NCBI RefSeq assembly: GCF_000154905.1
Contig: NZ_GG770540.1
Span: 29,311 to 93,310, forward strand
Origin: Streptomyces sp. SPB074
GTDB lineage: Bacteria > Actinomycetota > Actinomycetes > Streptomycetales > Streptomycetaceae
Direction of reading: 5' to 3'
DNA: 64,000 nt
Shown in pieces: positions 2,482-60,703 of the stretch. The notes under the pieces are model-generated. The model had not been told where the DNA came from and searched no databases. It was given only the letters and a program-made list of their open reading frames with translations. Numbering within the stretch: position 1 is the stretch's first letter; every line of letters starts with the position of its first letter. The position numbers and the translations under genes are program-made.

Positions 2482-3066
2482 GTCATCCTTCTGCCGCTGT
2501 CCTTCTCCTGCAACTTGCCCCGTCGGGGTGCGGGAGCTGCTGTTCGCGATTGGTCAGGCTGCGGTGTTGAGGGGGCGTCCGCCCAGCGGATGCCCTTTTC
2601 GCTGCGGATGCGGGCGCGTTCCTTGCGTTGGGCGGCGAGTACGTCGGGGTGGCGGGCGTTGGTGTTGCGCCAGCGCAGGTAGCGGTGCAGTGCCTGTGTT
2701 TGCGCGGGGTGGCTGTGGTGGTGGGAGTTGGCCAGGGTGAACTGCCGCAGCGGGCCGAAGTGGGCCTCGATCGGGTTGGCCCAGGAGGCGTAGGTCGGGG
2801 TGAAGCACAGCTCGACCTTGTTCTTCTTCGCCCGGCGGCGGATGTCCGCGCCGGTGTGGGCGGAGAGGTGGTCCAGGATGATGTAGATCGGGGCGCCGTC
2901 GGGCCGGGCGGCGCGGATCGACTTGAGCGCGGCCAGGGTGTCGGCGGTGCCCTTGCGGCGGCGGTTGACGCCCCACAGGCGGTCGTCGCCCACGGAGTAG
3001 CAGCCGTGGAAGTAGGTGACGCCGTGGGTGCGGCGGTAGGGCCTTGACCCTGGAGTTTGAACACGT

Positions 3067-3969: not shown

Positions 3970-4301
3970 CAGCGCGTCTCCGTCGCGAAATACCGGGCCG
4001 CCTTGCGGAGGATGTCGCGTTCTTCCTCCAGCTCGCGGATCCTCTTGCGCGCGGCGGCCAGCTCCGCCTGAACCGGGTCACCGGCAGGCTGCGGTGCCGT
4101 TGCGGGGGCGGAATGGGCACCGGCGCGGCGTCCGTCGGCGGCCCGGATCCAGTTCCGCAGCGTCTCGGTGTTCACTCCGAGATCGGCGGCGACCGACTTG
4201 ATCGTCGCTCCCGGACGCGACCGGTACAACGCGACCGCGTCCGCCTTGAACTCGGCGGGGTAATGCTTCATCCCCACAGGGACTCCGTTCTCCTGGACCA
4301 T
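3966..4301 (-). CDS. IS3-family transposase OrfA, copy A
   Basis: This HTH protein provides DNA binding for the element (KHYPAEFKADAVALYRSRP, then SVAADLGVNTETLRNWIRAA). It ends in a coiled coil (ELAAARKRIRELEEERDILR) typical of IS3 OrfA. I chose the ATG at 4301, which has GGAGAG upstream; a longer TTG start (4328) and a shorter ATG (4271) are also possible. It overlaps orfB by 4 bp. Confidence 0.9.
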   Translation of the reverse strand: MVQENGVPVGMKHYPAEFKADAVALYRSRPGATIKSVAADLGVNTETLRNWIRAADGRRAGAHSAPATAPQPAGDPVQAELAAARKRIRELEEERDILRKAARYFATETRW

Positions 4302-5071
4302 CAAGATCCAAGTCTCTCCGGTGTCCAAACTCCAGGGTCAGGGCCCGTAGGTCGCCGGCAGCTGGTTGGGCTTGCCCTGCTTCGCCCAGCAGGAGCCTGC
4401 GGTGGGCCGGATCCCCAGGGGCCCGAACTCGTCGAAGGCGAAGACCCGGTCCGGGAAGCGTTCCAGCACCTGCTCGATCCGGTCGAGCTTGGCGTCGCGG
4501 TCAGGGTCGGGTGACTCCTTCCAGGTCTTGGTGCGCTGGAAGGTGATGCCGCGGCGCCGGAGCAGGCACCGTAAGGCCTCACGGCCGATGCGGATGACGC
4601 GTCCGTGCACTTTCCGCAGGTGGGCGGCGAGTTTGCGGCTCGACCAGCGGGTGAAGGGCTGGCCGAGCTTGGTGGGGCGGGTGGTGGCCGTCGCCACGAC
4701 GAAGTCCTCGTCGTCAGGCTTGAGCAGGCGGGGACGGCCTCCCGCCCACCGAGGGTCCAGGCAGGCCAGGCCGATCTCGTTGAACCGGTGGATCACATCC
4801 CGGACGGTGTCCTCGTCGGCCTGCACCAGCTGAGCGATCGCCGGCACCCGGTTCCCGCCGGCCGAGGCCAGCAGCATCATCGCGCGCCGGTAGCGCACCG
4901 AACTCGTGCTGCCCTGGCGCACGATCTGCTGCAGCTTCTGCCCCTCCTGGTCGGTCAGTCTGCGCACACGGACAGGCTCGGCCACCGCGCCTTCAGCGAT
5001 CGGATCGGACGTCGCCGCACATCCAACCGTCGCGACCACCAACCCGGCGAACCTTCCCGGTCAGAGCACTA

Positions 5072-26080: not shown

Positions 26081-26650
26081 ATGCGACGGGTCGCACTGTT
26101 CGGGCCCCCGGCCACCGGAAAGTCAACGCTCGCCCGCTGGCTCTCCACGGAACTCGACGAACCCCATACCGACCTCGACGACATCCTGTTCACCCCCCAG
26201 GGGCCGCTGCCGCTGGACGAATTCCGCCGGCAGGCCGCGGCCATCACCGCGACGGACGGGTGGATCGTCGAAGGGAACTTCTCCAAGCTGGCGGACGTCG
26301 TCTGGAACCGGGCCGACACCCTGGTCTGGCTCGACTTCCCACTGCCGCTGATCCTCTACCGGATCACCCGGCGAAGCCTGCGCCAGCTGGCCGGCCGGGA
26401 GGACAGCGCACAGGCCCGGCGCCTCACCTGGACCTCGGCGTTCTTTGCCCGCCGGTCCCTGCTGCGCACCGCCATCCGCAAGTACCGGGCCAACCGGCCC
26501 CGGTACGCCCGGCAGGTGGCCGAGGCCGCGGCCCTGGGCGTCGAGGTCGTACGGCTCCGCAGCCCACGCGAGGTCCAGCGCTGGAGGCAGAGAACAGCGA
26601 AGGGGGCGGAGAGCCGCTCACGAGCGGCCCGGCACACCACCGGCCCTTAA
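26081..26650 (+). CDS. small P-loop nucleotide kinase-like protein
   Basis: The 189-residue protein has Walker A GPPATGKST at residues 8-16, an acidic DLDDILF lid start, GWIVEGNFS and TLVWLDFPLPLILYRITRRS. This resembles the adenylate-kinase-like FlaR/topology-modulation group of small ATPases. The native substrate is unknown. A promoter may lie in the AT-richer stretch before ATG 26081. The adjacent 25849-26080 has no gene. Confidence 0.75.
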   Translation: MRRVALFGPPATGKSTLARWLSTELDEPHTDLDDILFTPQGPLPLDEFRRQAAAITATDGWIVEGNFSKLADVVWNRADTLVWLDFPLPLILYRITRRSLRQLAGREDSAQARRLTWTSAFFARRSLLRTAIRKYRANRPRYARQVAEAAALGVEVVRLRSPREVQRWRQRTAKGAESRSRAARHTTGP

Positions 26651-26741
26651 CCAGCCATCTCCACCACCAGCTGACGCCAGCGCAGGGAAGCACCCACCAG
26701 CCTACAAGGCACACCAGCCCGGACCACCCCAAGGAAACCCC

Positions 26742-27332
26742 GTGATCCCACATGGCCGCCCCGTGATCAACGAACGGGACATCGCCCAGAGAGCCGGTGT
26801 TCCCCTCCCCACCTGGAGGCGCCGGGACGCACCAGCCTTCCGGCGACGAGTAACCGCCCTCTTCGACAGTCGCGTACTCATCTACGACAAGGCCCAGGCA
26901 CATGCCTACCTCAACGGACAACCCATCCCTCCACTGCCCACGTCACCGCACCCCGACGACCTCCTCAACGACCAAGAAGCCGCAGCTCTCCTTGAAGTGA
27001 CACCCGGCACCGTCCGCGCCTACGCCAGCCAGAACTACCTCCCGCGAGGCACCACGGTCTACAGCCTCCGCCTCTGGACCCGCCAGGGCATCGAAGCCCG
27101 CCGCGACACCCCTCCCCGCCAAGGACAGGGTGGCGGTCGCCCCCCAGGCAAAACTGGCCCCACCAAAGCGCACCCCTACGAAGGCGACCCCCGCCTCCAC
27201 CTCGCCGCGCAAACCCTCACCGCCTCGCCAGGCACCCCCCGCACACATCTCGCTGCCACCCTCGCCGACCAGCACGGCAGCTCCACCCGCACCTGGGAAC
27301 GCCTCCTCGCCCAAGCCGCCCGCACCCAGTGA
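26742..27332 (+). CDS. helix-turn-helix DNA-binding protein
   Basis: The 196-residue protein contains two HTH-like segments: NERDIAQRAGVPLPTWRRRD near the N-terminus and LLNDQEAAALLEVTPGTVRAY in the middle, the latter excisionase/MerR-like (LPRGTTVYSLRLWTRQG). The C-terminus is basic, with another possible HTH (HLAATLADQHGSSTRTWERL). I chose GTG 26742, preceded by AAGGAA; GTG 26763 is also possible. It lies just upstream of the HEPN-like gene and could regulate it, but this is only positional. Confidence 0.65.
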   Translation: MIPHGRPVINERDIAQRAGVPLPTWRRRDAPAFRRRVTALFDSRVLIYDKAQAHAYLNGQPIPPLPTSPHPDDLLNDQEAAALLEVTPGTVRAYASQNYLPRGTTVYSLRLWTRQGIEARRDTPPRQGQGGGRPPGKTGPTKAHPYEGDPRLHLAAQTLTASPGTPRTHLAATLADQHGSSTRTWERLLAQAARTQ

Positions 27333-27352: not shown

Positions 27353-27427
27353 CTTATCCGACGCGACAAAAAGGGACATGACGATCGTTCTGCCTGCGCG
27401 GCGGAAACCGGGAGGGGAACCGCGCGC
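27353..27427 (+). promoter_or_regulatory. conserved leader shared by both HEPN-like/zinc-ribbon genes
   Basis: CTTATCCGACGCGACAAAAA and the following bases up to the start codon closely match 59501-59575. Conservation across two loci suggests a promoter/leader that travelled with the gene. GGGAGGGG before ATG 27428 is a strong ribosome-binding site. Only the right half of the palindrome seen at 59484-59512 is present here. Confidence 0.6.
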
Positions 27428-28555
27428 ATGAGCGAGGACGGCAGAACGACGAGCGCGCCCGCACCTCTGCCACGCCCTTCCCGGTGGCGGCCCGGGACAC
27501 CCCCGCCCGGCCCCGCGCACCTCGACTTCCCGCCCGTGCGCAACGGCCTCGACTTCCTCCAGAGCGCCGTCGGACACCTCGACGACTGGGAAGGCGGCCA
27601 GGCCCGCGACGTGAAGTACGCCGTCCTGCACCTCCGGGCCGCCGTAGAGGTCCTCCTCAAAGCGCGTCTGCACGCCGAGGACTGGACCCTCGTCTTCGCG
27701 CCGTTCGTTCCGCCCAGGAAGATGACCCGCGAGAACTTGGAGAGCGCCGACTTCAAGAGCGTCACCCTTGCCGAGGCGATCACCCGTCTTCGCGACATCC
27801 CGCATGTCACCATCGACAAGACCGAGGAAGAGGAGCTCCTCGCCCTTGTCAGGGCCCGCAACAAGCTCCAGCACTTCGGCCTGACCGCCTCCGCGACCGA
27901 GGTCGAAGAGCGGACGGCGAAGGTGCTCGACTTCCTCATCCGCTTCTGCGACGAACAGCTCCTCCCCTACCTGACCAACGAGTCGGAGCTGCGGGAGGCA
28001 AAGGAAAGCCTGGAATCGCTCAGAGAGGGTCTGACCCGGGTCACCGCCTACGGCGACCAGCGCATGGAGCGCATCGGCAATGACCTGCGCCGGGAGGGCG
28101 CGGAGAACCGAACCATCGAGTGCCCCGAGTGCGAGCGGGCCGCCCTGGTGATCGGCGACTCCCCTGCCGATCCGCCCGCCGAGGGCCCGCCCGTCACGGC
28201 GACGTGCCGCTTCTGCGAGCGGACCTGGAGTACGGAGGACCTCGCCTTCCGCTACTTCGGGGGGAGGGGAAGACGGCCCGAGCGGCCCCACGCCTGCCCG
28301 CAGTGCGGGCAGGCGACGCTCGGGACCGGCGTCGTGCTGCGCTCCAGCCCCCGCACCCGGACCGTCTTCTGCTTCACCTGCCTTTTCCCCTCTCCTGAGC
28401 TGGGCTCGTGCTCCGACTGCGGGCATGTCGTGAGCCCCGCCGAGGACCCTTCCTTCTCGGGCCGGTGCGAGCGGTGCCGCGCGTCCGGTGCGCCCGTGTA
28501 CGAGGGCCGCCAGGACTACGGGTTCCACGATGAGGCGGAGGACGAGACGCCGTGA
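27428..28555 (+). CDS. HEPN-like/zinc-ribbon protein, copy 1
   Basis: The 375-residue protein has an N-terminal helical region (about 35-185) with AVLHLRAAVEVLLKARL and the RNKLQH motif (Arg144-His149). This fits the R-x4-H signature of HEPN domains, many of which are RNases in toxin or abortive-infection systems. The C-terminal part has six CxxC pairs (232/235, 260/263, 290/293, 315/318, 328/331, 347/350), enough for three zinc ribbons that may bind nucleic acid. A linker with a coiled coil (ELREAKESLESLREGLTRVT) joins them. A paralogue of identical length is at 59576. The function is inferred, not known. Confidence 0.7.
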   Translation: MSEDGRTTSAPAPLPRPSRWRPGTPPPGPAHLDFPPVRNGLDFLQSAVGHLDDWEGGQARDVKYAVLHLRAAVEVLLKARLHAEDWTLVFAPFVPPRKMTRENLESADFKSVTLAEAITRLRDIPHVTIDKTEEEELLALVRARNKLQHFGLTASATEVEERTAKVLDFLIRFCDEQLLPYLTNESELREAKESLESLREGLTRVTAYGDQRMERIGNDLRREGAENRTIECPECERAALVIGDSPADPPAEGPPVTATCRFCERTWSTEDLAFRYFGGRGRRPERPHACPQCGQATLGTGVVLRSSPRTRTVFCFTCLFPSPELGSCSDCGHVVSPAEDPSFSGRCERCRASGAPVYEGRQDYGFHDEAEDETP

Positions 28556-28581: not shown

Positions 28582-29960
28582 GGGTCTGTCAAACGAGCGG
28601 TGTAAGTAGGGTTGTTGAGGGTTACTGGCGGGCTGCGGAGAGTCGGCCGTCGAAGGTGATGTCGAAGGCGTTGAGAGCGGTTTTCCAGCGCATGGTCCAG
28701 CGGGCCTGGCCCTTGCCGGTCGGGTCGAGCGACATGATCGCCATGTAGACGCACTTCAGGGCGGCCTGTTCGTTCGGGAAGTGCCCCCGGGCTTTCACCG
28801 CCCGGCGGATCCTGGCGTTGACGGACTCGATCGCGTTGGTGGTGCAGACGATGCGGCGGATCTCAATGTCGAAGCGCAGGAACGGGGTGAACTCCTCCCA
28901 CGCGTTCTCCCAGAGCCTGACGTCGCCGGATACTTCTTGCCCCATGCGTCGGCGAACTCCGCGAACCGATCGAGGGCCGCGTCCTCGGTCGCCGCGGTGT
29001 AGACGGGCTTGAGGACCTTGGCGATCTTGTCCCAGTCCTGGCGGGCGGCATAGCGGAAGGAGTTCCGCGGCAGATGGACCACGCAGGTCTGCACGACGGT
29101 GCGGGGCCAGACGGTCTCGACCGCGTCGGGCAGGCCCTTGAGCCCGTCGCATACGAGCATGAGGACGTCGTTCACGCCGCGGTTCTTGATCTCGGTGAGG
29201 ATGTGCATCCAGTGCTTGGCGCCCTCGCCGCCGTCGCCGGCCCACAGCCCGAGAATGTCCCGCCGGCCCTCGACGGTGACGGCCAGGGCGACGTAGATGG
29301 GCCGGTTGGCGACCGCGCCGTCGCGGATCTTTACGTGGATGGCGTCGATGAAGACGACCGGGTAGACGGCGTCCAGGGGCCGGTTCTGCCATTCGGCCAT
29401 GCCTTCGAGGACCTTGTCGGTGATCGTGGAGATCGTCTGGCGCGACACGTCGGCGCCATAGACCTCGGCCAGGTGGGCCTGGACCTCGCCGGTGGTCAGG
29501 CCCTTCGCCGCGAGTGAGATGACCATCTCGTCGACGCCGGACAAACGCTTCTGGCGCTTCTTGACGATCTTCGGTTCGAAGGAGCCCTCGCGGTCGCGGG
29601 GCACGGTTGTCTCCACCGGGCCCACGTCGGTCAGTACGGTCTTGGCGCGGGTGCCGTTGCGGGAGTTGCCGCCGTTCTTCCCCGCCGGGTCGTGCTTGTC
29701 ATAGCCGAGGTGGTCGGTGATCTCGCCCTCGAGGGCCGACTCCAGGAGTCGTTTGGTCAGCTGCTGGAGCAGCCCGCCCTCGCCGGTCAGCTGCAGGCCC
29801 TCCGCCTGAGCCCGGCCCACCAACTCGTCGATCAGCCGGTCGTCCACAGACTTCGACGGCACCGTCTCAGACGGCTCGACGGGCTCGGCCTTGGTCACGT
29901 TGTTGCTGGTCATCGAGCATCTTCCATGATCGGGAGTTACACCGAACGTTTTACAGTCCC
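28582..29960 (-). mobile_element. IS256-family element
   Basis: The imperfect inverted ends GGGTCTGTCAAACG (left) and GGGACTGTAAAACG (right, inverse), both followed by CGGTGTAA, bound an IS256-type transposase gene. The expected 8-9 bp target duplication is not visible. It lies 26 bp after the first HEPN-like gene and 4 bp before the end of the XRE gene. Confidence 0.8.
28622..29913 (-). pseudogene. IS256-family transposase with one frameshift
   Basis: The first 325 codons, from ATG 29913, are typical (LTGEGGLLQQLTKRLLESAL, YPVVFIDAIHVKIRDGAV with the first Asp, VLMLVCDGLKGLPDAVETVW with the second). The frame breaks after WGKKYPA (about 28935), where one base seems missing. It continues as VRLWENAWEEFTPFLRFDIE and TTNAIESVNARIRRAVKARG (containing the Glu) to 28622. 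The transposase is inactive unless the frameshift is an assembly error. Confidence 0.85.
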
Positions 29961-30995
29961 CTTCTCAGGCGGCAAGCACGCTGTGTGCGCGGTCGATGAA
30001 GTCGCGGGCGGCTGGCGTGGTGCGGTGCTGGCCGAGACGTTCCGCGAGGGAGAGCAGGGGCGCGGTGGTGCGGTGCGAGCTGATCGTTTCGGTGAGGTCC
30101 AGCGCGGTGCCGGCGGTGGCGCACGCGCGCTCTAGGCGGTGTCTTCAAATGTCACGCCCACATCAGGAGCGAGGCGAGGGTGACGGCTGCGTGATAGGAC
30201 TCGGCGGTCTTGTCGTAGCGGGTTGCGATGCCGCGCCACTGCTTCAAGCGGTTGAAGCACCGTTCGACCACGTTGCGCTGCTTGTAGAGCTGCTTGTCGA
30301 AGATCGGCGGGCGGCCGCCCCGGCTGCCGCGCCGGAGCCGGTTGCGTATCTGGTCGGCACGCTCGGGGATGGTGTGGCTGATGCCTCGGTGTCGCAGCCA
30401 GGCGCGTATCGCGCGGGAGCTGTAGCCCTTGTCGCCCAGCACGTGCGCGGGCCTCGTCCGGGGGCGGCCCGGGCCGACGCGCGGCACCCTGATCGCTTCC
30501 ATCACGGCGGCGAACTGGGTGCAGTCGTTGGTGTTGCCACTCGTGAGGACAAAGGCGAGCGGGCGTCCGAAGGCGTCGCAGACCAGGTGGATCTTGCTGG
30601 TCAGCCCACCTCGGGAGCGTCCGAGTGCCCGGTCGCGGTGCCCCCTTTTCGGGCCCCGGCCGCATGCTGGTGGGCGCGTACGACGGTGGAGTCGACCGAC
30701 ACCAGCCAGCCGACCTCTCCTGCCGCGTCCGAGCGGGCCTGTGCGGCCTGGAGCATCCGTTCGAAGGTGCCGTCCAGGGCCCACCGGCGGAAACGGGTGT
30801 GCAAGGTGTGCCAGGAGCCGTACCGCTCGGGCACATCTCGCCAGGCCGTGCCCGTCCGGAACTTCCACACGATCCCGTTGAGCACGGTCCGGTCGTCCAA
30901 GCGCTTCCGCCCACGAGAAGCCCCGGGCAACAGCGGACGGAGGAACTCCCGGGCCCTGACCCTGGAGTTTGGACACCGGAGAGACTTGGATCTTG

Positions 30996-31331
30996 ATGGT
31001 CCAGGAGAACGGAGTCCCTGTGGGGATGAAGCATTACCCCGCCGAGTTCAAGGCGGACGCGGTCGCGTTGTACCGGTCGCGTCCGGGAGCGACGATCAAG
31101 TCGGTCGCCGCCGATCTCGGAGTGAACACCGAGACGCTGCGGAACTGGATCCGGGCCGCCGACGGACGCCGCGCCGGTGCCCATTCCGCCCCCGCAACGG
31201 CACCGCAGCCTGCCGGTGACCCGGTTCAGGCGGAGCTGGCCGCCGCGCGCAAGAGGATCCGCGAGCTGGAGGAAGAACGCGACATCCTCCGCAAGGCGGC
31301 CCGGTATTTCGCGACGGAGACGCGCTGGTGA
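30996..31331 (+). CDS. IS3-family transposase OrfA, copy B
   Basis: Identical in protein sequence to copy A OrfA at 3966-4301. It has an HTH plus a C-terminal coiled coil and overlaps orfB by GTGA. The start is ATG 30996. Confidence 0.9.
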   Translation: MVQENGVPVGMKHYPAEFKADAVALYRSRPGATIKSVAADLGVNTETLRNWIRAADGRRAGAHSAPATAPQPAGDPVQAELAAARKRIRELEEERDILRKAARYFATETRW

Positions 31332-32230
31332 ACCGCTGCCAGTTCGTTGAGGATCACCAGCGCCGATACGGCGTGAAGCGGCTCTGCGACATTCTCGGGA
31401 TCGCCCGCTCGAGTTTCTATTACTGGCGTCGCACCGCCCCGGCTCGCATGGCCCGTCAGGCCGCTGACGACCGGCTCGCGGCCCGGATACGCAAGGCCCA
31501 CAAGGAGTCCGACGGCACCTACGGAGTCCCGAGGATCACTGCCGAGCTCCGCGACGAGGGCGGCCAGGCGGTCAACCACAAGCGCGTTGCCAGGATCATG
31601 CGGACCATCGGCCTCGAAGGGGTCCGTCTGCGGCGCCGGCACCGCACCACCATCGCCGACCCGGCCACCGCGAAGGCCCCGGACCTGATCGGCCGCGACT
31701 TCACCGCGAAGGAGATCAACACCAAGTACGTCGGTGACATCACCTACTTGAGCGTCGGCGGCGGACGGTTCTGCTATCTCGCGACAGTGATCGACCTGTG
31801 CTCGCGCCGCCTGGCAGGCTGGGCGATCGCCGACCACATGCGCACCGAGCTCGTCATCGACGCCCTCGCCGCCGCGGAACGGACCCGCGGCAGTCTGAAC
31901 GGGGCGATCATGCACACCGATCACGGAGCCCAGTACACCAGCGGGGCCTTCGCGGACGCCTGCCGCCGGGCCGGTGTCCTGCAGAGCATGAGCGCCGTCG
32001 GGTCCAGCGCGGACAACGCCGCCGCCGAATCGTTCAACGCCAGCTTTAAAAGGGAGACGTTGAAGGGCCGAAAGGGCTGGTCAAGCGAGCGCGAGGCACG
32101 ACTCGACGCCTTCCACTGGCTGTCCCGCTACAACACCCGACGCCGTCATTCCCGGCTCGGCCAGCGAGCCCCGATCACCTACGAGATCACCGTCCACCCA
32201 ACCTCAACTACCCTGGCCCGAGCCGCATAG
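31328..32230 (+). CDS. IS3-family transposase OrfB, copy B
   Basis: The 300-residue DDE integrase is identical to the copy A protein, with all three catalytic residues present (GDITY, HTDHG, AAAESFN). It is complete and is a candidate source of ongoing transposition in this replicon. Confidence 0.93.
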   Translation: MNRCQFVEDHQRRYGVKRLCDILGIARSSFYYWRRTAPARMARQAADDRLAARIRKAHKESDGTYGVPRITAELRDEGGQAVNHKRVARIMRTIGLEGVRLRRRHRTTIADPATAKAPDLIGRDFTAKEINTKYVGDITYLSVGGGRFCYLATVIDLCSRRLAGWAIADHMRTELVIDALAAAERTRGSLNGAIMHTDHGAQYTSGAFADACRRAGVLQSMSAVGSSADNAAAESFNASFKRETLKGRKGWSSEREARLDAFHWLSRYNTRRRHSRLGQRAPITYEITVHPTSTTLARAA

Positions 32231-33701
32231 ACGTGTTCAAACTCCAGGGTCAAGGCCCCCCACTCCGCATCGGACTATTCATGACGACGTATCATCCGAC
32301 CATGATCCACCACTCAAGATCAATTGAAGACAGGCCCTAGCTCGCCCTGTGCGTACTGGGCGTCCGCCATCCGGCACAGGTAGACGGCGTGGGTGCGGAC
32401 GGTGGTGGGGCCGAGCAGCTCGTCGGCCGCCGTGAACTCGGTCTCGGCGCGGTCGTGCTGGCCCATGTCGCGGTGGCTGGACGCGCGGGCGCCGAGGATT
32501 TCGGCGCGGTCGAACCAGTACGCCCACTGCGGGGCCTGGTCCTGCTGCTCGTCAGCGCGGGCGAGGAGAGTTTCCGCGGCGTCGAAATCGTCCCAGCACC
32601 GGGCGTCGCCGAGGTGGGCGCGGGCGCGGCCGCGCCGGCTGTGCATCATCGCTTCGACGCGGGGATCGGTGCGGCCGCGGACGGCGGCGAGTGCTGCGGT
32701 GGCCATGTCGTCGGCGTCGTGGAGACGGCCGGTGTTGTAGGCGGAGACGCACCAGAACGCCAGGACGTTGGCGCCGAGGGCGTCGTCTCCGGCGACGCGA
32801 GCCGCGCGCAACGCGGTCAGGAACGTGCCGTCGGCGCAGTCGCCCCGGGTGTCGAACAGGGCGGCGGCGCGCTGGCGGGCGAGGTCGGCGGCCGCGGCGT
32901 ACAGGCGGGCGCCGTGCGCGTCGGTGTAGGTGCGCTGGTTGATGATGCCGTTGACCAGTGCGAGGGCGCTCGACGCTTCGGCGAGGACGGTACCGCCCCC
33001 GTCTTCGTCGTCCCGCTCCCGGAGCTCCTGGGCGCGGGCCTCCAGCTTGGCCACTCCGGCCTCTCCGATGCGCTGGCCGGTGGTGAGCTGCCCGGCGGCC
33101 ACCGGATCGGCCGTGAGCCAGTTCAACAGGGCGGCGGTCAGGGTGCCGCCGGAGATCAGTACGAGTTCCCGTCGCGTGACGCCCATGGCACCCCTTGTGA
33201 GTTCGGTGAGGGACTGGGAGGCGCCGAGAAGCGTCCAGGGCCGGGGAGTTGGCCTCTGGGCGGGATCCTCGGACAACCACTCTGGCCATGGTCGCTCATC
33301 GACCGCCGTAGGCGGAATACCGAGCAGATCGGCGATGAGCCGTTGGGTCGGGTCGTCCGGCTCGCGGTCGTGCTCCCAGTACCACACGCCATCGCGGCCG
33401 GTCTGGATCGGGTGGCCGCGCTCGCGGCTGCGGGCGCGTAAGCGGGTGGCCATCTCCGCCAGACTCCACCCGCGCATCTTCCGGGCGCGGGTCAGCAGGT
33501 AGCCGCGGGGGCTACCGGCCGTGTGGGGCGTCCTGGGGCCATTGGCACCTCCGCTGTGCGCATGCCCAGACACGGGCGGTGGCCGCACTCTACGGCGGCC
33601 GGGCCGGCGGCGGTAGCCGCTTCGGTGTTGCTCCCTGTTGCTCGTGGTCGCAACGCAGAGCAACACCGTCATCACGCCTCGCGGGCGAGCACGACGCCAC
33701 C

Positions 33702-44983: not shown

Positions 44984-45185
44984 TTACATGGCGACTGGAC
45001 GGGTGGAGTCGTCAGCGCGGTGCGACGACGACTGCCACCGGCAAGAACCCGTCGCCGACGTCCACGGGCGGCACCGGCCGCACCGGTGGGCCGCGCAAGA
45101 CGGGGGCGCCCGGACCGACACGTCGGCCGCCGGGTGACGAGCAGTGTAAGGGCCCGCGACGGGCCCGGTAACGAGGGGAGCGAAC
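44984..45185. other. leader of the transfer region
   Basis: A Ser/Thr/Gly/Pro-rich reading (TATGKNPSPTSTGGTGRTGG) ending at 45171 could be the tail of a gene disrupted earlier, or no gene at all. AGGGGAGC at about 45174-45181 is the ribosome-binding site of the next gene. Confidence 0.35.
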
Positions 45186-46328
45186 ATGTCGATGCCGACA
45201 CCGGAGGAACGCCCCGGGGAGGCGTTCACGGAGGCCGCCGCCGAGGCGGTGCAGACCTCCATGATGGCGTTCCGTCTGGTGATGGCCATCGCGGACGCGG
45301 TGCGCCGTCAGCAGCAGAAGAAGGCCGGGAAGGAGGACGAACTCCCGGACACCAAGAAGGCGGCGGCGGAGGCCTCGGAGGAGGTCAAGAAATTCCTGCC
45401 GGACGACATCGCCACGGCGTTGCTAGAGGGCGCGGACTGGCCCCAGCTCGCCCAGCAGCTCATGGCACTCAAAGCCGCCGGGGTCGACCTGGAGACGATG
45501 CTCCCGCGCGTCGGCGAGATCACCGTGGACGTGCGGGACCAGGTCGCGGCGAACGCCGAGAAGATCAAGCGCGAGGGCACCGAGGAGTGGGCGAAGGCGC
45601 TGCGCGAGACGCTGCCGGCGGGACCGGTGCGCGAGGCGATCCTGTCCTCCCCGGCGTGGCCGGAGATGGCGCGGACGATGGCGACGATGGACGAGCGCGG
45701 AGTCGACGTGCGGGCTCTGCTCGCGGCCGCGCACGAGGAGGGCGTCGGCGTCGACCAGGCGGTCGCCAAGGTGCTCGCGGCCGGGGAAGCGCCGACCACG
45801 AGCCGGGACGCGAAGCTGTCGTACGGGCCGTTGACGACCGGGCTCGACATCCCCAAGGATCTCGACTTGGGGGACAGGGAGCGGGCCCTTCGGCAACTCT
45901 CGATCGCGCCGTCGGAGAACGCGAAGTTCACGCGCATGGTGCGCGAGGCCCTGCCCGGCGCGGAGCGGGAGGCGGACCTGCTGGTGACCTCGCGTCAGTG
46001 GCCGCTGGTCGCCGCCCGGATGGCGGACATGGAGAGCAAGGGTCAGCCGGTCGCGGAGCACCTGGCCCGCCTGTCGAAGGACCCCTCGTGGCAGGAAGGC
46101 CCGCAGACGCAGATGGGGCGGCGCCTGATCCAGGCCGCCAACGATGCGCTGCGCAAGCCGGTCGGCGCGGCGGGGCCGAAGGTGAGCACGGCGGCCGCGA
46201 GGTCGACGTCGCCGAGCGTGGGCCCTACTAAGCCGGCCGCGAAGGGCACGGCCGCGGCGACGGCCACGCCCGGCGTGGCCGCGCACCGGGAGGCCGGGCC
46301 CGCGCCGAAGAGTGGCAAGACCCGGTAG
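45186..46328 (+). CDS. hypothetical transfer-region protein
   Basis: The 380-residue protein is rich in charged helices. Two similar units are visible (WPQLAQQLMALKAAGVDLET and WPEMARTMATMDERGVDVRA, with a third, WPLVAARMADMESKGQPVAE), each preceded by an ALxxxLPxGxxR-like segment. It therefore seems to be a three-repeat helical protein, followed by a disordered Ala/Thr/Lys tail. There is no signal peptide. It lies at the edge of the conjugation module, convergent with the cell-wall hydrolase. The function is unknown; a cytoplasmic accessory role in transfer is likely from context only. Confidence 0.75.
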   Translation: MSMPTPEERPGEAFTEAAAEAVQTSMMAFRLVMAIADAVRRQQQKKAGKEDELPDTKKAAAEASEEVKKFLPDDIATALLEGADWPQLAQQLMALKAAGVDLETMLPRVGEITVDVRDQVAANAEKIKREGTEEWAKALRETLPAGPVREAILSSPAWPEMARTMATMDERGVDVRALLAAAHEEGVGVDQAVAKVLAAGEAPTTSRDAKLSYGPLTTGLDIPKDLDLGDRERALRQLSIAPSENAKFTRMVREALPGAEREADLLVTSRQWPLVAARMADMESKGQPVAEHLARLSKDPSWQEGPQTQMGRRLIQAANDALRKPVGAAGPKVSTAAARSTSPSVGPTKPAAKGTAAATATPGVAAHREAGPAPKSGKTR

Positions 46329-46343
46329 AGCACGGCCGGACGC

Positions 46344-46382
46344 ACGTGTGCCGCAGACCGATCGTCGGTCTGCGGCACACGT
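46344..46382. terminator. bidirectional terminator hairpin
   Basis: ACGTGTGCCGCAGACCGA and its exact inverse form an 18-bp stem with a 3-nt loop, between two convergent genes. Confidence 0.88.
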
Positions 46383-46392
46383 CGTTTCGGGG

Positions 46393-47454
46393 TCAGGGGC
46401 GGGTGGCGCCGTAGTAGTCCCGCTCGGGCATCGCGGACGTCAGCGGGGCGAGTTCGACGTTCTTACCGGTGCGCGGCGCCTGCACCACGTTGCCGTCACC
46501 CGCGTAGATCGCGACGTGATAGATCCTGCCGCTTCCGCCGTGCGACCAGAACAGCAGATCGCCCTCCTTGAGGTCACTGCGGGAGACGGGCCGGTCGGAC
46601 GTGGCGCCGTACTGCGCGGACGCCGTGCGCGGCAGTTTCAGCTTGGGCGCGAAGGCGTACTGGGTCAGCCCGGAGCAGTCGAAGCCGGTGGTGCTGGAGG
46701 CCACGCAGTCGCCGTTCAAGTAGCCGTTGGTGCCGTCACAGAAGCCCTTCGACGGGCCGGAGGGTCCGCCGCCACCCCACGCGTACGGGGTGCCGATCCG
46801 GCCGACCGCCTTGCGCAGCGCGTCGGCTCCCGAGCCGTGCCCGGAGACCTGGATCAGGCTCGGGCCCTGGAAGCGCGGCAGGTAGCTCAGGATGAGCTGG
46901 ACGTAGTTGAAGGTCTCGCCCTTCGCGAACGATTTCGGCGGCACTCCCTTGAACTGCTCGACCCGGCCCCATCCGGCGTTGTAGCCGGCCAGCGCGAGGG
47001 CGCGGACGTCGCCCGGGTAGCCGGAGGACTTCGCCTGCTTCAGCAGGGAGCACATCATCCGGCCCTGTGCCATGACGGCGTCGCCGATGTCCCACAGGCT
47101 GGCCTCCCCGTTGCCGTCGTCGTCGCGCGCCCACGTCGCATAGGTCGAGGGAAGGAACTGAGCCGGGCCCTGCGCGTTGGCGGAGCTGGTGGCCTCCTCC
47201 TTCGAGGTCTTGAACTTGCTCTCCTGCCAGAGCTGCGCGGCCAGCAGAGCCGGGGTCATCGCCTGCTCCTTGCAGGCCTCGTCCGCCTTGAGAATCCACT
47301 CGCGGAACTCGGCGGGCACACCCTTGAGGCCGCCGCTGGAGCTGGTCGATTCGGTGGCCGATGCGTCGTCGCCGATGACCACACCCACCACCGCGAGGAG
47401 CGCCAGGACGACCAGTCCTATGACCGCGGCGACGGCCCCCATGAGCACCTTCAC
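46393..47454 (-). CDS. VirB1-like lytic transglycosylase with NlpC/P60 domain
   Basis: The 353-residue secreted or anchored protein has an N-terminal membrane segment (residues 5-28). It is followed by an SLT lysozyme-like domain (LLAAQLWQESKF with Glu78, QGPAQFLPSTYATWA, LALAGYNAGWGRVE) and an NlpC/P60 peptidase (TTGFDCSGLTQYAF with Cys260, IYHVAIYAGDG with His313). This two-domain hydrolase is the standard peptidoglycan-opening factor of Gram-positive conjugation systems. It is divergent from the main transfer operon. Confidence 0.93.
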   Translation of the reverse strand: MKVLMGAVAAVIGLVVLALLAVVGVVIGDDASATESTSSSGGLKGVPAEFREWILKADEACKEQAMTPALLAAQLWQESKFKTSKEEATSSANAQGPAQFLPSTYATWARDDDGNGEASLWDIGDAVMAQGRMMCSLLKQAKSSGYPGDVRALALAGYNAGWGRVEQFKGVPPKSFAKGETFNYVQLILSYLPRFQGPSLIQVSGHGSGADALRKAVGRIGTPYAWGGGGPSGPSKGFCDGTNGYLNGDCVASSTTGFDCSGLTQYAFAPKLKLPRTASAQYGATSDRPVSRSDLKEGDLLFWSHGGSGRIYHVAIYAGDGNVVQAPRTGKNVELAPLTSAMPERDYYGATRP

Positions 47455-47960
47455 GTGCTGTCCCCCCGTGCGTGTTCTCGCTTCGCTGTCGTGCCGGTTG
47501 TGTGACTTTCTGCCGTACTAGATCACGAGTTGTTTGGCATGTGCGCCTCCATTCGCCGGGGCCGGACCGGCTACGAGAGCGCGGCTCACGTAGGGTCGGG
47601 GATCAGGTTTCAGGTAGGGCGATTTCGCACAACGAAATGCCGCCCTCTTCATTTCGCACGGCGAAATGGAGGCGTCCGCGCGGAACCGTTGGCGACTCGG
47701 GGGTGTGGCTGTGGGTGTGTGTGTTGACGCTGTGACTCCGGCCGGAGTGACCAGCCGGAACGTGTTCGCCGTCTCGAAACAGCCGCCGCTTTGCAGGCAA
47801 ATCCCCGGCCGCCGTGCGCTGTTGTAGAGCGACACCTCTGCCTGACCTCCGGCTCTCGCGAAAACACCACCCAGGTTTGTCGGGGGTTCACGCTAGCCTC
47901 AGTGATCCCAAGAACCCAATATCGTGACTTAAACAAAGGCATACAGGGGGGAGTTGCGGC
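47455..47960. promoter_or_regulatory. divergent promoter region of the transfer genes
   Basis: About 500 bp between the hydrolase and the transfer operon. It holds two similar dyads, ATTTCGCACAACGAAAT (47622-47638) and CATTTCGCACGGCGAAATG (47650-47668). Their left ends are 28 bp apart, which suggests a repressor binding on one face of the helix. No gene is seen. Confidence 0.6.
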
Positions 47961-48440
47961 ATGACCACCCAATCGGTGACATCAACCCCGGGCACTGGTG
48001 CGCCGGTTGCCCTCCGGTACGCGCTGATGCCGATCGACATGGGTGTCGGCATTGCAGTGGCGACGGTGGCGAAGATGCTCGACAACGACGCCGGCGGCGC
48101 CCGGGCCCGAGTCCTGGCGTACGGGGAGCACATCCCGTACGGCGCCTCTCCGGTGCTCGTGGCGGACACGACGCTGTACGGCACGCACATGGTCGAGCAG
48201 ACCCTCCAGCGGTGGGGCTCGCTGCCCCGGCCGTGGCTGGTGTGGGTGGCCGACAGCCCGGCCCGCCCCGTGCAGGACGCCCGGTTCCTGGTCCGCGCCC
48301 TGGAGGGGCGGCTGGCCGGGGTGGCGAGGTTGCCGTACCTGCCCGTTCTCCGGGCCGTTAAGGGTCCTGACGAGGCCCTGGAGTACAAGAACGTTCGGTC
48401 CGCAGCCGAGAAGCTGCGGCACACGATCGAAGGGAAGTGA
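47961..48440 (+). CDS. hypothetical protein, first gene of the transfer operon
   Basis: The 159-residue protein reads YALMPIDMGVGIAVATVAKM, LVADTTLYGTHMVEQTLQRW and PRPWLVWVADSPARPVQDAR, an alpha/beta fold with no transmembrane segment. The ATG at 47961 follows GGGGGGAG. It is 4 bp from the pilin-like gene. It may be a cytoplasmic assembly or regulatory factor. I do not recognise the family. Confidence 0.75.
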   Translation: MTTQSVTSTPGTGAPVALRYALMPIDMGVGIAVATVAKMLDNDAGGARARVLAYGEHIPYGASPVLVADTTLYGTHMVEQTLQRWGSLPRPWLVWVADSPARPVQDARFLVRALEGRLAGVARLPYLPVLRAVKGPDEALEYKNVRSAAEKLRHTIEGK

Positions 48441-48444
48441 GCAG

Positions 48445-48765
48445 ATGGCTATGGAGCGGGTCGCCGCGTTCATCCTGGCGGCGGACGACGACAAGAAGAA
48501 GGGCGGCGGCAGCCTCATTCCCGGGGCCAAGCCGACGAAGATCCCGGGCATGGAAGGTCCGGTCTCCGAGATCTTCGGCTACGGCCTGTGGCTGCTGGTC
48601 CTGGCCGGGGTCGGCGGTGTGGCCTTCGGCGTCTACAAGCTGGCCGTGTCGGACAAGAGCCGCAACGGCGGCGGGTCCGAGCCCTTCAAGTGGATGGGCG
48701 GGGGGCTGGCCGCGGTCATCTTGTCCGGATCGCTGATCGCCATCCTCAACGGCATCGCAGGCTGA
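48445..48765 (+). CDS. pilin-like (VirB2-type) small membrane protein
   Basis: The 106-residue protein has two hydrophobic helices (LWLLVLAGVGGVAFGVYKLA and GGGLAAVILSGSLIAILNGI) separated by a short charged loop, the topology of VirB2/TrbC-like proteins in Gram-positive T4SS. ATG 48445 or 48451 are both possible. It is in operon with its neighbours (gaps of 4 and 10 bp). Confidence 0.8.
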   Translation: MAMERVAAFILAADDDKKKGGGSLIPGAKPTKIPGMEGPVSEIFGYGLWLLVLAGVGGVAFGVYKLAVSDKSRNGGGSEPFKWMGGGLAAVILSGSLIAILNGIAG

Positions 48766-48775
48766 GGCGGGGGAC

Positions 48776-49570
48776 ATGGGACGCACCAGGGGGACGTGGA
48801 ACACCAAGGGCACCTGGTTCGCCGGCGCCGCGCTCGCGGCCGTGCTCGCCCTGACGGGCTACGCGGTGTTCAGCGGCGGCGACGACGGCGGGGACACCCC
48901 GGCCAAGGGCCCGAGCGCGAGCGCGAGCGGGTCCGCCTCACCCGGCCCGACGTACGCGCCGCCGGAGGACTGGACGGAGCCGGACCAGTGGTCGGCACTT
49001 CCGCGGGGGAAGCGCACCGACGACCGGGGCAGTCAGGTCGGCTTCCCGAAGACGACCGAGGGCGCGGTGTCGATGATGGTCGCCGCCAACGCGACCGACA
49101 TCGAGGGCGAGAAGACCAACACCGACGAGCAGCTCCGCATCTACCACTCGTACATCGGCAAGGCGGACCAGTCGTCGGAGAACGCCGAGCAGATCGAGCT
49201 GCAAGCCCAGCAGAGCGACAAGTCCCTGGCCAAGCAGATGGGCGTGAGCCCCGGCCAGTCGCTGCCCGCGGGCGCGTACGTCCGCAACACCGTGGTCGGA
49301 TACAAGATCATCCAGAAGTCCGACACCGAGGTCAGCGCGTGGCTGCTGACCAGGGTGGTGCAGAAGAACGGCGAGATGGAGAAGGAGAAGGGCTCCTATA
49401 CCCGGACGCTGGCCGGTGCGCAGTGGGAGGGCGGCGACTGGAAGCTCACCGGCGACGCCACCGCCCGCGCGCAGAAGGACGTCCAGGGCCAGACGCAGCC
49501 GCGGATCGTCGCGCCGGGCGACGCCGACTTCAACAGCGCCGGATGGACGGCCATCCGGGAGGCGTCGTGA
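48776..49570 (+). CDS. VirB8/TcpC-like membrane-anchored transfer protein
   Basis: The 264-residue protein has one N-terminal transmembrane helix (WFAGAALAAVLALTGYAVFS), a flexible Ser/Ala/Pro linker and an extracellular domain of alternating helices and strands (GAVSMMVAANATDIEGEKTN, AYVRNTVVGYKIIQKSDTEV, AWLLTRVVQ). The layout matches NTF2-fold VirB8-like proteins of Gram-positive conjugation channels. The assignment rests on topology and position. Confidence 0.65.
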   Translation: MGRTRGTWNTKGTWFAGAALAAVLALTGYAVFSGGDDGGDTPAKGPSASASGSASPGPTYAPPEDWTEPDQWSALPRGKRTDDRGSQVGFPKTTEGAVSMMVAANATDIEGEKTNTDEQLRIYHSYIGKADQSSENAEQIELQAQQSDKSLAKQMGVSPGQSLPAGAYVRNTVVGYKIIQKSDTEVSAWLLTRVVQKNGEMEKEKGSYTRTLAGAQWEGGDWKLTGDATARAQKDVQGQTQPRIVAPGDADFNSAGWTAIREAS

Positions 49571-51087
49571 TGCGCCGAGGCGTCATGGGGCGCCGGTTCG
49601 CCGCGGTGCTGCTCGCCCTCGCCGCGGTGTTCGGGGTGTCCGTCGTCTCGGCGCCGCAGCCCGCGCGGGCCGACGGCATCATCAGCAACACGATCGAGGG
49701 GGCCTGCCGGGTCACCACCGGCTCGGTGCTCGGGACGATCCTGCACCCCGGCGGCAAGCTCACCGGCATCGGCGGCCTGACCGGCTCGGACATGTGCGAC
49801 GCGGTCGGCGACGTGGGCGAGAGGGCCATCAAGGATGCCTGGAAGAACGTCTGGGACTCGGTCTTCGGCGACATCATCAAGTCCGCCCAGGACGTCACCA
49901 AGTGGATCATCAAGAAGACGCTGACCCTGGCGCTGCTCGGCCCGTCGGTCGACCTGAAGGGCACCGGCCTGTGGGACGGCAAGGCCACCTTGGCGGGCAT
50001 GCTCGTGTGGCTCGGGCTGGTGATCGCCGCGTTCGGGGTGATGTGGAACCTCGCCAAGATGGCGATCACCGGGAAGGCGCAGCACGCCGGGGTGGCGATG
50101 AAGGGATGGGTGGAGAACATCGTCCTGTCCGCCCTCGGCGTCAGCTTGTTCGCGTTCCTGCTGACGCTCGGGGACGCGCTGAGCGCCGGACTGGTGAAGG
50201 CCACCTTCGATGACGACGGGCAGGCCTACGAGCGGTTCATCGCGGTCCTGCTGCCCAACGCGATCTCGAACCCCATCACCCTGCTGTGCATCGTCGGCGT
50301 GCTGCTGCTGATCGGCTTCATCCAGATGGTGATGATCTTCCTGCGGCAGAGCGCCATCCCGATCATCTGCCTGCTGATCCCCGTGGCCGGCGGCGGTCGG
50401 ACCGGCGGCGAGGCCACCCGGAAGTGGGCGCCCAGCCTGATCACCTCCGGCATGGTCATCGTGGCCTACAAGCCCACGGTCGCCGTGATCATCTGCACCG
50501 GGTTCGCGGAGTTCGGCCACTCGAAGACCCTCGCGGAATGGCTGCGCGGCTGCGCCACGCTGGTCCTCGCGGTGCTCGCCCCGGGCCCGCTCACGAAGAT
50601 CTTCGCGCCCTTCGGGGCGGCGGTCGGCGCGGGCATGAGCGCAGGGGGCGCCAGCGGCGCCCTCGGCGCGGCCGCGGGCTACTTCGCCGGGAAGGCCGGA
50701 GGCGACGGCGACGGAGGCGACGGCGGCGGTGACGGCGACGGCGGCACGAACGCGGTCGAGCACGCGAAGTACGTCGAGCAGAGCATGGGCAGCCAAGGCC
50801 AGGGCCAAGGCGGCGACGGCGAGGACGGCGGCCAGGGCGGCGACGCCCAGACGCAGGCCGCCCGGAACGAGACCGGACGCGTACCCGGACAAGGCGGCGA
50901 AGTCGACGGCGTTCCGGGCGTCGGCACGCCGGGCACCACCGAGGCCGTGCAGGGCACGGCGGGCACCGCCGGCACCAGCACCGCGGCGGGCGCGCTCGGT
51001 CCGGTCGGCGTCGGCATCCAGGTCCTGGACGGCGTCAATGACGCGGTCCAGGGGGCGAGCGGTCAGATGGGCGGAGAGAACCAGTGA
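49570..51087 (+). CDS. VirB6-like polytopic membrane protein with signal peptide
   Basis: The 505-residue protein has an N-terminal signal sequence (FAAVLLALAAVFGVSVVSAP, then QPARA). Several membrane helices follow (AGMLVWLGLVIAAFGVMWNL, IVLSALGVSLFAFLLTLGDA, LLCIVGVLLLIGFIQMVMIF, and two further ones), then a long Gly/Asp/Gln-rich disordered tail from about residue 370. It starts at the ATG overlapping the previous stop (TGATG). This is the VirB6/TrbL channel-component layout. Confidence 0.85.
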   Translation: MRRGVMGRRFAAVLLALAAVFGVSVVSAPQPARADGIISNTIEGACRVTTGSVLGTILHPGGKLTGIGGLTGSDMCDAVGDVGERAIKDAWKNVWDSVFGDIIKSAQDVTKWIIKKTLTLALLGPSVDLKGTGLWDGKATLAGMLVWLGLVIAAFGVMWNLAKMAITGKAQHAGVAMKGWVENIVLSALGVSLFAFLLTLGDALSAGLVKATFDDDGQAYERFIAVLLPNAISNPITLLCIVGVLLLIGFIQMVMIFLRQSAIPIICLLIPVAGGGRTGGEATRKWAPSLITSGMVIVAYKPTVAVIICTGFAEFGHSKTLAEWLRGCATLVLAVLAPGPLTKIFAPFGAAVGAGMSAGGASGALGAAAGYFAGKAGGDGDGGDGGGDGDGGTNAVEHAKYVEQSMGSQGQGQGGDGEDGGQGGDAQTQAARNETGRVPGQGGEVDGVPGVGTPGTTEAVQGTAGTAGTSTAAGALGPVGVGIQVLDGVNDAVQGASGQMGGENQ

Positions 51088-52535: not shown

Positions 52536-52540
52536 CGACG

Positions 52541-56464: not shown

Positions 56465-56469
56465 GCGAG

Positions 56470-56508
56470 CCCCCCCTCACGCTACTCGCTGAGCGGCGCG
56501 AGGGGGGT
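56470..56508. terminator. hairpin after the transfer operon
   Basis: CCCCCCT and AGGGGGG close a longer stem-loop just after the DUF4913 stop. Beyond it, 56509-56859 contains no recognised gene. Confidence 0.5.
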
Positions 56509-59483: not shown

Positions 59484-59512
59484 GCGTCGGATAAGCTCTC
59501 CTTATCCGACGC
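59484..59512. promoter_or_regulatory. 12-bp inverted repeat before HEPN-like copy 2
   Basis: GCGTCGGATAAG and CTTATCCGACGC, separated by CTCTC, form a perfect dyad. The homology with the leader of copy 1 (27353) begins at its right half. The stretch 59261-59483 holds no gene. Confidence 0.75.
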
Positions 59513-59575
59513 GACAAAAAGGGACATGACGGCCGGTCGGCCCACGCGCCGGAAACCGGGAGGGGAATTCCGCGC

Positions 59576-60703
59576 ATGAGCGAGGACGGCAGAACGACGA
59601 GCAGGCCCGCACCTCTGCCACGCCCTTCCCGGTGGCGGCCCTGGACGCCCCCGCCCGGCCCCGGGCACCTCGACTTCCCGCCCGTGCGCAACGGCCTCGA
59701 CTTCCTCCAGAGCGCCGTGGGACACCTCGATGAATGGGAAGGCGGCGGGGCTCGCGACGTGAAGTACGCCGTCCTGCACCTCTACGCGGCGGCCGAGGTC
59801 CTCCTCAAAGCGCGTCTACACGCCGAGCACTGGACCCTCGTCTTCGCCCCTTCCGCCAAAGCCATCAAGGTGACGCACGAGGCCCTGGAGAATTACGAGT
59901 TCGACAGCGTGTCCCTCAAGGAGGCGATCGTCCGCCTTCGCAACATCGTGCAGGCGACCATCACGCCCGCCGAGGAAGCCCAACTCGAAGCACTCGGCAA
60001 GGACCGCAACAAGCTCCAGCACTTCGGCCTGACCGTCTCCGCGACCAAGGTCGAAGAGCGGACGGCGAAGGTGCTCGACTTCCTCATCCGCTTCTGCGAC
60101 GAACAGCTCCTCCCCTACCTGACCAACGAGTCGGAGCTGCGAGAGGCAGAGAAGAGCCTGGAATCACTCAGGGAAGGACTGACCCGGGTCACCGCCTACG
60201 GCGACCAGCGCATGGAGCGCATCGGCAACGAACTGCGCAAGGAGGGCGTGGAGAACCGAACCATCGAGTGCCCCGAGTGCGAAAAGCTCGCCTTGGTGAT
60301 CGAGGGCTCCAGGACGGGACTGCCTACCGAGGAGGACTCCCCCGACACGGCGACCTGCCGTTTCTGCGGACTGTCCAGGCCCACGGACATCCTTGTGCCC
60401 ATGTACTTCGGAGGACGGGATGGAGCCCCGGAACGCCCCAACACGTGCCCGACATGCCAGCAGCAGAATCTCGGTACCGGAGTCCTCCTGCACGGAGCTC
60501 ATGAGACATCCGCCTTCTGCTTCACCTGCCTCACCCCATTCCCGAACCTGGGCTGGTGCTCCGCCTGCGGAACCGCCACAGACCGTGGCGAGACCGGCTC
60601 GCCGCTGGATCTGTGCGAGTCGTGCAGTGCGTCCGGGGCCTTCGCGTACGACGGCCCCGAGGACTTCAGCATCGACGAGGAACTGGAGGACGGCACGCCA
60701 TGA
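59576..60703 (+). CDS. HEPN-like/zinc-ribbon protein, copy 2
   Basis: A 375-residue paralogue of the 27428 gene. RNKLQH is again at 144-149, with six CxxC pairs at 232/235, 261/264, 291/294, 315/318, 328/331 and 347/350. Compared with copy 1, residues 1-92 differ at 8 positions and 144-235 at 7. By contrast, 25 of 48 positions differ in residues 93-140, and the zinc-ribbon part is also divergent. The stop overlaps the start of a tyrosine recombinase (ATGA), so the two are made together. Family role is unknown; a toxin- or defence-type RNase is one hypothesis. Confidence 0.7.
   Translation: MSEDGRTTSRPAPLPRPSRWRPWTPPPGPGHLDFPPVRNGLDFLQSAVGHLDEWEGGGARDVKYAVLHLYAAAEVLLKARLHAEHWTLVFAPSAKAIKVTHEALENYEFDSVSLKEAIVRLRNIVQATITPAEEAQLEALGKDRNKLQHFGLTVSATKVEERTAKVLDFLIRFCDEQLLPYLTNESELREAEKSLESLREGLTRVTAYGDQRMERIGNELRKEGVENRTIECPECEKLALVIEGSRTGLPTEEDSPDTATCRFCGLSRPTDILVPMYFGGRDGAPERPNTCPTCQQQNLGTGVLLHGAHETSAFCFTCLTPFPNLGWCSACGTATDRGETGSPLDLCESCSASGAFAYDGPEDFSIDEELEDGTP

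Follow-up and report, generated by a model that had tools for sequence, protein, structure and literature searches.

A predicted HEPN RNase gene as the probable passenger of a small recombination module in Streptomyces

The window analysed here is a 64,000-nucleotide stretch of DNA from Streptomyces sp. SPB074, and the features discussed below are listed in Table 1. Two ORFs for 375-residue HEPN/zinc-ribbon proteins (copies 1 and 2) are present, as in the original prediction. Both proteins read RNKLQH at residues 144–149 and contain six CxxC pairs, again as reported there. Copy 2 is located between a palindromic site and a gene for a tyrosine recombinase (YR1), the ATG of which overlaps the stop codon of copy 2 by 4 nt. 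Copy 1 is preceded by only the right half of such a site and followed, 27 nt past its stop codon, by an insertion sequence (IS) of the Mutator/IS256 type, the ends of which were assigned by eye from a pair of inverted terminal repeats alike at 19 of 23 positions. The tyrosine recombinase, the palindromic site, and the lack of the left half-site and the recombinase at copy 1 are new with respect to the original prediction.

Table 1. Positions of the features around copies 1 and 2 in the window
Feature	Position	Strand	Basis or remark
HTH-type ORF left of copy 1	26445..27332	+	
Right half-site TTATCCGACGCGACA of copy 1, left arm absent	27354..27368	+	
Leader of copy 1 with the half-site; start of the similarity to copy 2	27354..27427	+	
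HEPN/zinc-ribbon gene copy 1, 375 aa	27428..28555	+	ORF
RNKLQH codons (R144–H149), copy 1	27857..27874	+	
Mutator/IS256-type IS behind copy 1	28583..29959	-	transposase 28795–29913
Palindromic site CGTCGGATAA-GCTCTCC-TTATCCGACG	59485..59511	+	predicted core site of the recombinase at 60700
Right arm and leader common to copy 1 (64/74 identical)	59502..59575	+	
HEPN/zinc-ribbon gene copy 2, 375 aa	59576..60703	+	ORF, between site and recombinase gene
RNKLQH codons (R144–H149), copy 2	60005..60022	+	predicted HEPN active site
Tyrosine recombinase gene, class YR1, 356 aa	60700..61770	+	PF00589, catalytic residues, structure model

The HEPN fold proposed originally is predicted in the structure model, and the rows of the structure search agree with it; none of the Foldseek matches of the model reaches E ≤ 0.001. 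When PDB sequences were searched with the HEPN profile, zinc fingers matched the C-terminal part, and none of the matches was convincing. The motif is conserved throughout the family as expected, R144, N145, L147, Q148, and H149 being invariant in all 119 aligned relatives. The R-x4–6-H motif with a polar residue after the Arg and the four-helix fold that characterize the HEPN superfamily are both found, the latter in the predicted structure. Judging from the motif and the model, the protein is predicted to be an RNA-cutting nuclease.

The original prediction knew no named system with this architecture, which has to be revised, since the PADLOC candidates HEC-08 and PDC-S64 match. All 44 members of a 44-row alignment match the HEC-08, PDC-S64, and DUF3644 models of PADLOC at E ≤ 1, the level used here instead of PADLOC's own score cut-offs. 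The E values of copy 1 are 3e-28 (positions 20–240 of 358), 2e-14 (7–271 of 339), and 6e-21, respectively, and the score with Pfam DUF3644 (PF12358), 12 bits, is below the gathering cut-off of 27.6. The protein is a member of an already known kind of candidate, filed by PADLOC among the single-gene candidates. In the open-licence literature searched, HEC-08 is named by a single paper and PDC-S64 by none. A HEPN family, EC042_2821, that overlaps DUF3644 and is fused to zinc ribbons is listed in PMC3710099. The likeness to HEC-08/PDC-S64 and to DUF3644/EC042_2821 lies in the HEPN domain and the R-x4-H motif, and the HEC-08 and PDC-S64 models align over 230–260 residues. The window proteins differ in matching HEC-08 weakly by comparison and in carrying six CxxC pairs; a protein of an Escherichia coli IncFIB plasmid (L131), about 26% identical to copy 2, matches it at 4.9e-145. 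Unlike copy 2, this E. coli gene has no annotated recombinase alongside. It lies at L131 3458–4531 (NZ_CP147051), flanked by relB and by a copy of IS26, beyond which lies tet(A).

Of 199 genomes of the genus, 24 have a relative of copy 1, a count that includes the genome of the window. No relative was found in the genome contigs with a single protein as the query; an alignment-based scan of them gave 90, of which 80, mostly from Streptomyces with some from other actinomycetes, were kept as named loci. Copy 2 matches 155 plasmid records, including 52 from Streptomyces and 28 from Escherichia, and none of the phage records. Two relatives of equal score lie close to the two ends of an 8.5-Mb contig and point in opposite directions (G128 C1, 59590 and 8472263), and two others of equal score lie on one 52-kb contig (G087 C4, 8929 and 46094).

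Clustering of the homologues with defence genes, suggested originally, was not seen in a partial test on members without a recombinase. Among 100 near neighbours (of 257) and 100 far neighbours (of 185), 42 and 23 PADLOC families, respectively, were matched at E 1e-10, nearly all of them in one protein each, which is no clear enrichment. Neighbour families 1 and 3, both recombinases, occur in 11 and 9 loci, and 10 of 13 and 5 of 9 of their members are directly downstream of the HEPN gene; the corresponding number is 0 of 12 for each of families 2 and 4. Among called genes of at least 70 aa, no widespread partner family other than the recombinases has a fixed place behind the HEPN gene.

The mosaic divergence of the two copies described originally is reproduced, with 8 differences in residues 1–92, 25 in residues 93–140, and 7 in residues 144–235; the zinc-ribbon part is also unlike, with 72 differences in residues 236–375. 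In a codon alignment, dS is 0.17 for residues 1–92, 0.59 for 93–143, 0.03 for 144–189, 0.50 for 190–206, 0.14 for 207–236, and 0.74 for 237–375. The nucleotide-level divergence is thus non-uniform (0.03–0.17 versus 0.59–0.74 in the main blocks), and the second conserved block is interrupted by a short high-dS stretch at residues 190–206. The longest run of identical codons is 30, a length reached in none of 10,000 shuffles of the 374 codons. Upstream of the ATG, 64 of 74 bases are common to both copies, and the similarity ends at the edge of the half-site, beyond which 9 of 30 positions are identical.

Two readings of the mosaic had been offered, gene conversion and selection on recognition surfaces. 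Selection with no gene conversion would fit the high dN of the diverged blocks (0.48 and 0.43) and their greater variability throughout the family: in 633 family pairs with 60–80% overall identity, the mean identities of residues 30–92, 93–143, 144–235, and 236–340 are 0.87, 0.68, 0.70, and 0.50. However, those of the two copies are 0.90, 0.49, 0.92, and 0.50, and family-wide constraint alone therefore cannot yield the pattern in the two middle blocks. The dS values go up and down with the protein divergence, which selection on residues alone would not bring about, and the conserved part extends into the non-coding leader. We consider selection as the sole cause very unlikely. Gene conversion or recombination is the better reading, since selection on residues alone does not lower dS, and likely made the mosaic. 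None of the 119 aligned proteins is closer to either copy in the diverged blocks than the two are to each other; P0088 ties with copy 2 for residues 93–143 of copy 1. This observation suggests one lineage that was partly homogenised, rather than patching from a third source among the proteins seen. The two copies likely diverged as parts of modules like the one described below, and parts of both were probably homogenised in blocks by gene conversion, with residues 93–143 and the zinc ribbons drifting.

YR1 matches Pfam PF00589 at E 9.9e-4 (19.4 bits), below the cut-off of 27.1; four of the other nine downstream ORFs scanned score above it (33.7–61.7 bits). The relatives of YR1 are annotated as integrases, many with a precomputed PF00589 assignment. 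R192, K219, H304, R307, W330, and Y340, which presumably play the catalytic R-K-HxxR-W/H-Y roles, are invariant in 33 of 33 relatives. In a structure search with a low-confidence model (pLDDT 66.9), the top 19 rows are all Cre or Tre, with identities of 11–15%. A PDB sequence search with the recombinase profile gave nothing at 0.01. Taken together, the residues and the model predict a Cre-like tyrosine recombinase. No class-1 recombinase (YR1) sequence other than the one behind copy 2 is present in the window.

In the palindromic site upstream of copy 2, the arms occupy 59485–59494 and 59502–59511 and the asymmetric spacer occupies 59495–59501. The site can alternatively be read as GCGTCGGATAAG-CTCTC-CTTATCCGACGC, with 12-bp arms and a 5-nt spacer. 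The core pattern matches once in the window, where 0.01 matches are expected by shuffling, and with up to 3 mismatches allowed the full site has a single occurrence in the 6.97-Mb genome. The class-1 site was found in 36 plasmid records, all from Streptomyces. The second recombinase class, YR2, has the site ACAGGATAA-TTACGG-TTATCCTGT; the 15 distinct class-2 sites have a TTACGG or TTACCG spacer, the only two that the collecting pattern admitted. The palindromes of L061 and L086 are ACAGGAAAA-TTACGG-TTTTCCTGT and ACAGGAAAA-TTACAG-TTTTCCTGT, in which both arms are altered together from the standard class-2 site and the spacer by at most one base. The YR2 proteins of these two loci are 52% identical to that of L034, and five others with the standard site are 75–100% identical to it. 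Since L061 and L086 are 74% alike, the joint arm change may be a single event. The change of both arms around a kept spacer suggests a recombinase core site more than an operator.

Generic palindromes with arms of at least 9 occur in 115 of 800 random 350-nt windows. Because of this background, single palindromes without the ATAA/TTAT core (L094, L095, L101, L114, and L071, the last without a recombinase) were left out of the counts; L061 and L086 were taken from the same palindrome list, since their arms, spacer, and place fit the class-2 site. The idea that the palindrome is part of the HEPN gene was dropped, since recombinase operons without a HEPN gene also have it. The site pattern was found in five viral contigs, with YR1 downstream in one (L170); L169, L171, and L172 are chance palindromes by the look of their spacers, and L173 is too short to judge. 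A 34% relative of YR1 (L166 11128, genome G043) lies near a further palindrome of the form ATAA-N7-TTAT, ccagcgcataa-GTGAACG-ttatgcgctag.

The site and the recombinase occur together in a constant order. The YR1 set comprises the best 37 (identity at least 58%) of 82 plasmid records matching at E 1e-20. In all 29 plasmid records with both, the site is followed on the same strand by YR1, 43–1506 nt downstream; one of them, NZ_CP009803, has only 48% of YR1 and no annotated integrase. YR2 is likewise downstream of its site, at 56–2712 nt, in 17 of 17 records with both. At the thresholds used, 7 of the 36 site records lack YR1 and 8 of the 37 YR1 records lack the site. Two of these seven were opened: in NZ_LN831788 the site is directly followed by a class-2-like recombinase, and NC_015951 has no recombinase annotated within 3 kb. 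As for YR2, 26 of 30 records were typed, 9 of which are without a class-2 site. Among the named HEPN loci, an upstream ATAA/TTAT palindrome is found in 6 of 20 with a recombinase versus 1 of 60 without. The exception, L078, has split YR2 pieces 1.6–3.5 kb downstream; with L078 moved to the recombinase group, the counts become 7 of 21 versus 0 of 59 (Fisher p 3.7e-5). Random windows contain the palindrome in 26 of 3200 cases. The 14 recombinase-bearing loci of the 20 without it include some with broken recombinases, some with another palindrome, and several with nothing.

The place between the site and the recombinase, hereafter the slot, varies in content. It is at most 110 nt long in 8 of 29 class-1 and 8 of 17 class-2 records, 182 nt in one record, and 329–2712 nt in the others. 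Among the opened filled slots, HEPN genes occur at L132, L133, L134, L188, L191, L192, and L199, the last of which also has an HTH gene and, on the opposite strand, another gene. Annotated HTH or transcriptional regulators are found at L175, L178, L179, and L198, DUF6221 at L139 and L183, and DUF6615-like proteins, with a possible nuclease pattern by eye only, at L190, L193, and L195. The slot protein of L177 has a sub-threshold Pfam HNH match and PADLOC matches to CBASS-type HNH effectors. The slot genes of L174, L176, L180, L182, L197, and L200 have no assigned family. At L196 the annotated integrase itself extends to the site, suggesting that a long gap need not always be a separate gene.

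Comparisons between plasmids delimit this arrangement. CP108547 resembles NZ_CP108136 at 84% over the 74 nt of site and leader and at 88% over 1053 nt of the recombinase, with unrelated genes in between. From the palindrome through the recombinase end, CP108547 is 96.5% alike to NZ_CP108572, with no match directly outside and another common block 1.1 kb further on. Varied slot genes follow the class-2 leader, which reads MLTPDQ.. in several records; in L194, an empty module, it is followed by the recombinase. These observations indicate a module with sharp edges and an exchangeable middle. A second HEPN gene lies behind the class-2 recombinase of CP108547 in the opposite direction, outside the slot (L190 571–1533). 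In NZ_CP107842, the last 186 nt of the class-2 recombinase gene are duplicated at L195 5785–5971, ending nearly at the base of the module edge.

The palindrome could instead be an operator through which a dimeric regulator controls the operon. This regulator might be the slot protein or the recombinase itself, and the slot gene would then be the regulatory partner of the recombinase. The position of the site directly before the operon, the HTH regulators in some slots, and the 4-nt overlap between the slot gene and the recombinase start in several records would be in keeping with this. Contrarily, the asymmetric spacer is kept while the arms change together, the site follows the recombinase class and not the slot gene and is present when the slot is empty, and the similarity has its edge at the palindrome both in copy 1 and in class-2 modules. 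In addition, PMC11705084 assigns control of Xer binding and cutting to the ATAA-spacer-TTAT motif. We therefore regard an operator as improbable.

Alternatively, the HEPN gene may hitch-hike by plasmid integrases as an ordinary defence or toxin gene of the single-gene type, with no mechanistic meaning to its neighbourhood. No YR1 or YR2 lies behind the HEPN gene in 60 of the 80 named loci and in 43 of 53 typed plasmid records, suggesting that HEPN function is independent of the module, and the filing by PADLOC agrees with a gene acting singly. Against this, the constant order and the overlap recur in several plasmids with two recombinase classes. The presence of a recombinase is also clustered on the HEPN tree, with 15 changes versus 22.5 in shuffled labels and none of 200 shuffles as low, a value to which near relatives contribute. 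Hitch-hiking is possible, though we think it rather unlikely.

We interpret copy 2 as probably the passenger of a small recombination module consisting of the site, the slot gene, and YR1 on a likely conjugative plasmid, and copy 1 as a copy without the left half-site and the recombinase. The recombinase would bind both arms, cut at the arm/spacer edges, and join two sites as Cre does at lox, fusing and resolving replicons with a common spacer. If a fused replicon were resolved by homologous recombination in the recombinase gene, the slot gene would be exchanged. The passenger may be a HEPN RNase in which the zinc ribbons read the target or trigger before RNA is cut, and it may be kept for an anti-phage or plasmid-stabilising (toxin) function; the lack of a clear defence-gene enrichment around members without a recombinase counts somewhat against the former. 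No rearrangement at the site was seen in the replicons looked at, which have one site each. Twelve of the 27 opened records are linear; this counts against the module, since dimer resolution has no obvious use on linear replicons.

At copy 1, neither the left half-site nor the recombinase is present, and both were likely lost; the GTG overlapping the HEPN stop could, as a guess, be the old recombinase start. The HTH-type ORF to the left matches 25 plasmid records, 11 of them over 80% of the query, and together with the adenylate kinase gene next to it is also found in other Streptomyces plasmids, where no HEPN gene follows. Where NZ_CP108570 has CTCACATATCCGGAG, the window has GTCACTTATCCGACG. 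The half-site is thus joined to right-arm-like sequence, either by the recombinase at a poor site or by short-homology joining. The latter, without the recombinase, is a real possibility that we favour somewhat less; TATCCG, common to the target in NZ_CP108570 and the site, would be the shared homology, whereas the break coincides with the boundary of spacer and right arm, the expected cutting point of a tyrosine recombinase, an observation that is not decisive.

The module has features in common with known systems. As in Cre/loxP of phage P1, inverted arms around a short asymmetric spacer lie near the recombinase gene, and the structure rows are Cre and Tre. The spacer of loxP is 8 nt, whereas those of the two classes here are 6 or 7 nt; the sequence identity to Cre and Tre is low, and the module differs further in having an exchangeable gene between the site and the recombinase. 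In integrons and in defence hotspots by integrase genes, a recombinase gene likewise lies beside a site with exchangeable accessory genes. In contrast to these, no second site was seen here between the slot gene and the recombinase, and the two genes overlap in several records. According to PMC11705084, Xer/pdif sites of Acinetobacter plasmids also have an ATAA-spacer-TTAT core, the plasmids differ beside the site, and exchange via fused plasmids has been proposed. The pdif modules described there have two flanking sites and use chromosomal XerCD, whereas here each opened replicon has one site and the recombinase is inside the module; no second flanking site was found, with one site in the window's genome and one match per scanned locus. 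By analogy, the module resembles Cre/lox and pdif, and its layout matches neither. A module that combines a single site with a recombinase of its own and an exchangeable passenger is described in no title or abstract retrieved from the open-licence literature.

More speculatively, these modules may form a single-site exchange device on Streptomyces plasmids. A Cre-like recombinase would read a lox/dif-like palindrome heading its own operon and fuse spacer-sharing replicons; when the fusion is resolved inside the recombinase gene, the slot gene would be swapped. With a slot stocked with effectors (HEPN RNases, HNH-type and perhaps PD-(D/E)xK-type nucleases, and regulators), defence genes would be traded at a fixed docking point without a second site. 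We put this forward tentatively and doubt that it holds in full. The findings connect a family of candidate defence RNases with a compact recombination module; if the interpretation is true, it would explain how unrelated genes swap places beside a conserved recombinase on Streptomyces plasmids, and the two recombinase classes with their own sites could become new Cre/lox-type tools.

The window probably lies on a conjugative plasmid. A TrwC relaxase domain is found at position 143924 of the 162,086-base contig, and window positions 45000–56475 are 80–84% alike to transfer gene blocks of the eight best-matching Streptomyces plasmids (74–76% of a 15-kb query). No overlap or repeat was found at the contig ends. 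Just left of the copy 2 site, an ORF of the nucleoside hydrolase family (PF01156, E 5.6e-23) is encoded on the minus strand at 58247–59275. Direct repeats of 94–100% identity are found at 37905–38204/44659–44958, 6002–6169/25223–25390, and 13191–13296/24494–24599. Positions 3039–4347 and 30950–32258 are inverted copies of a 1309-nt element, 100% alike, which is likely a recently moved IS.
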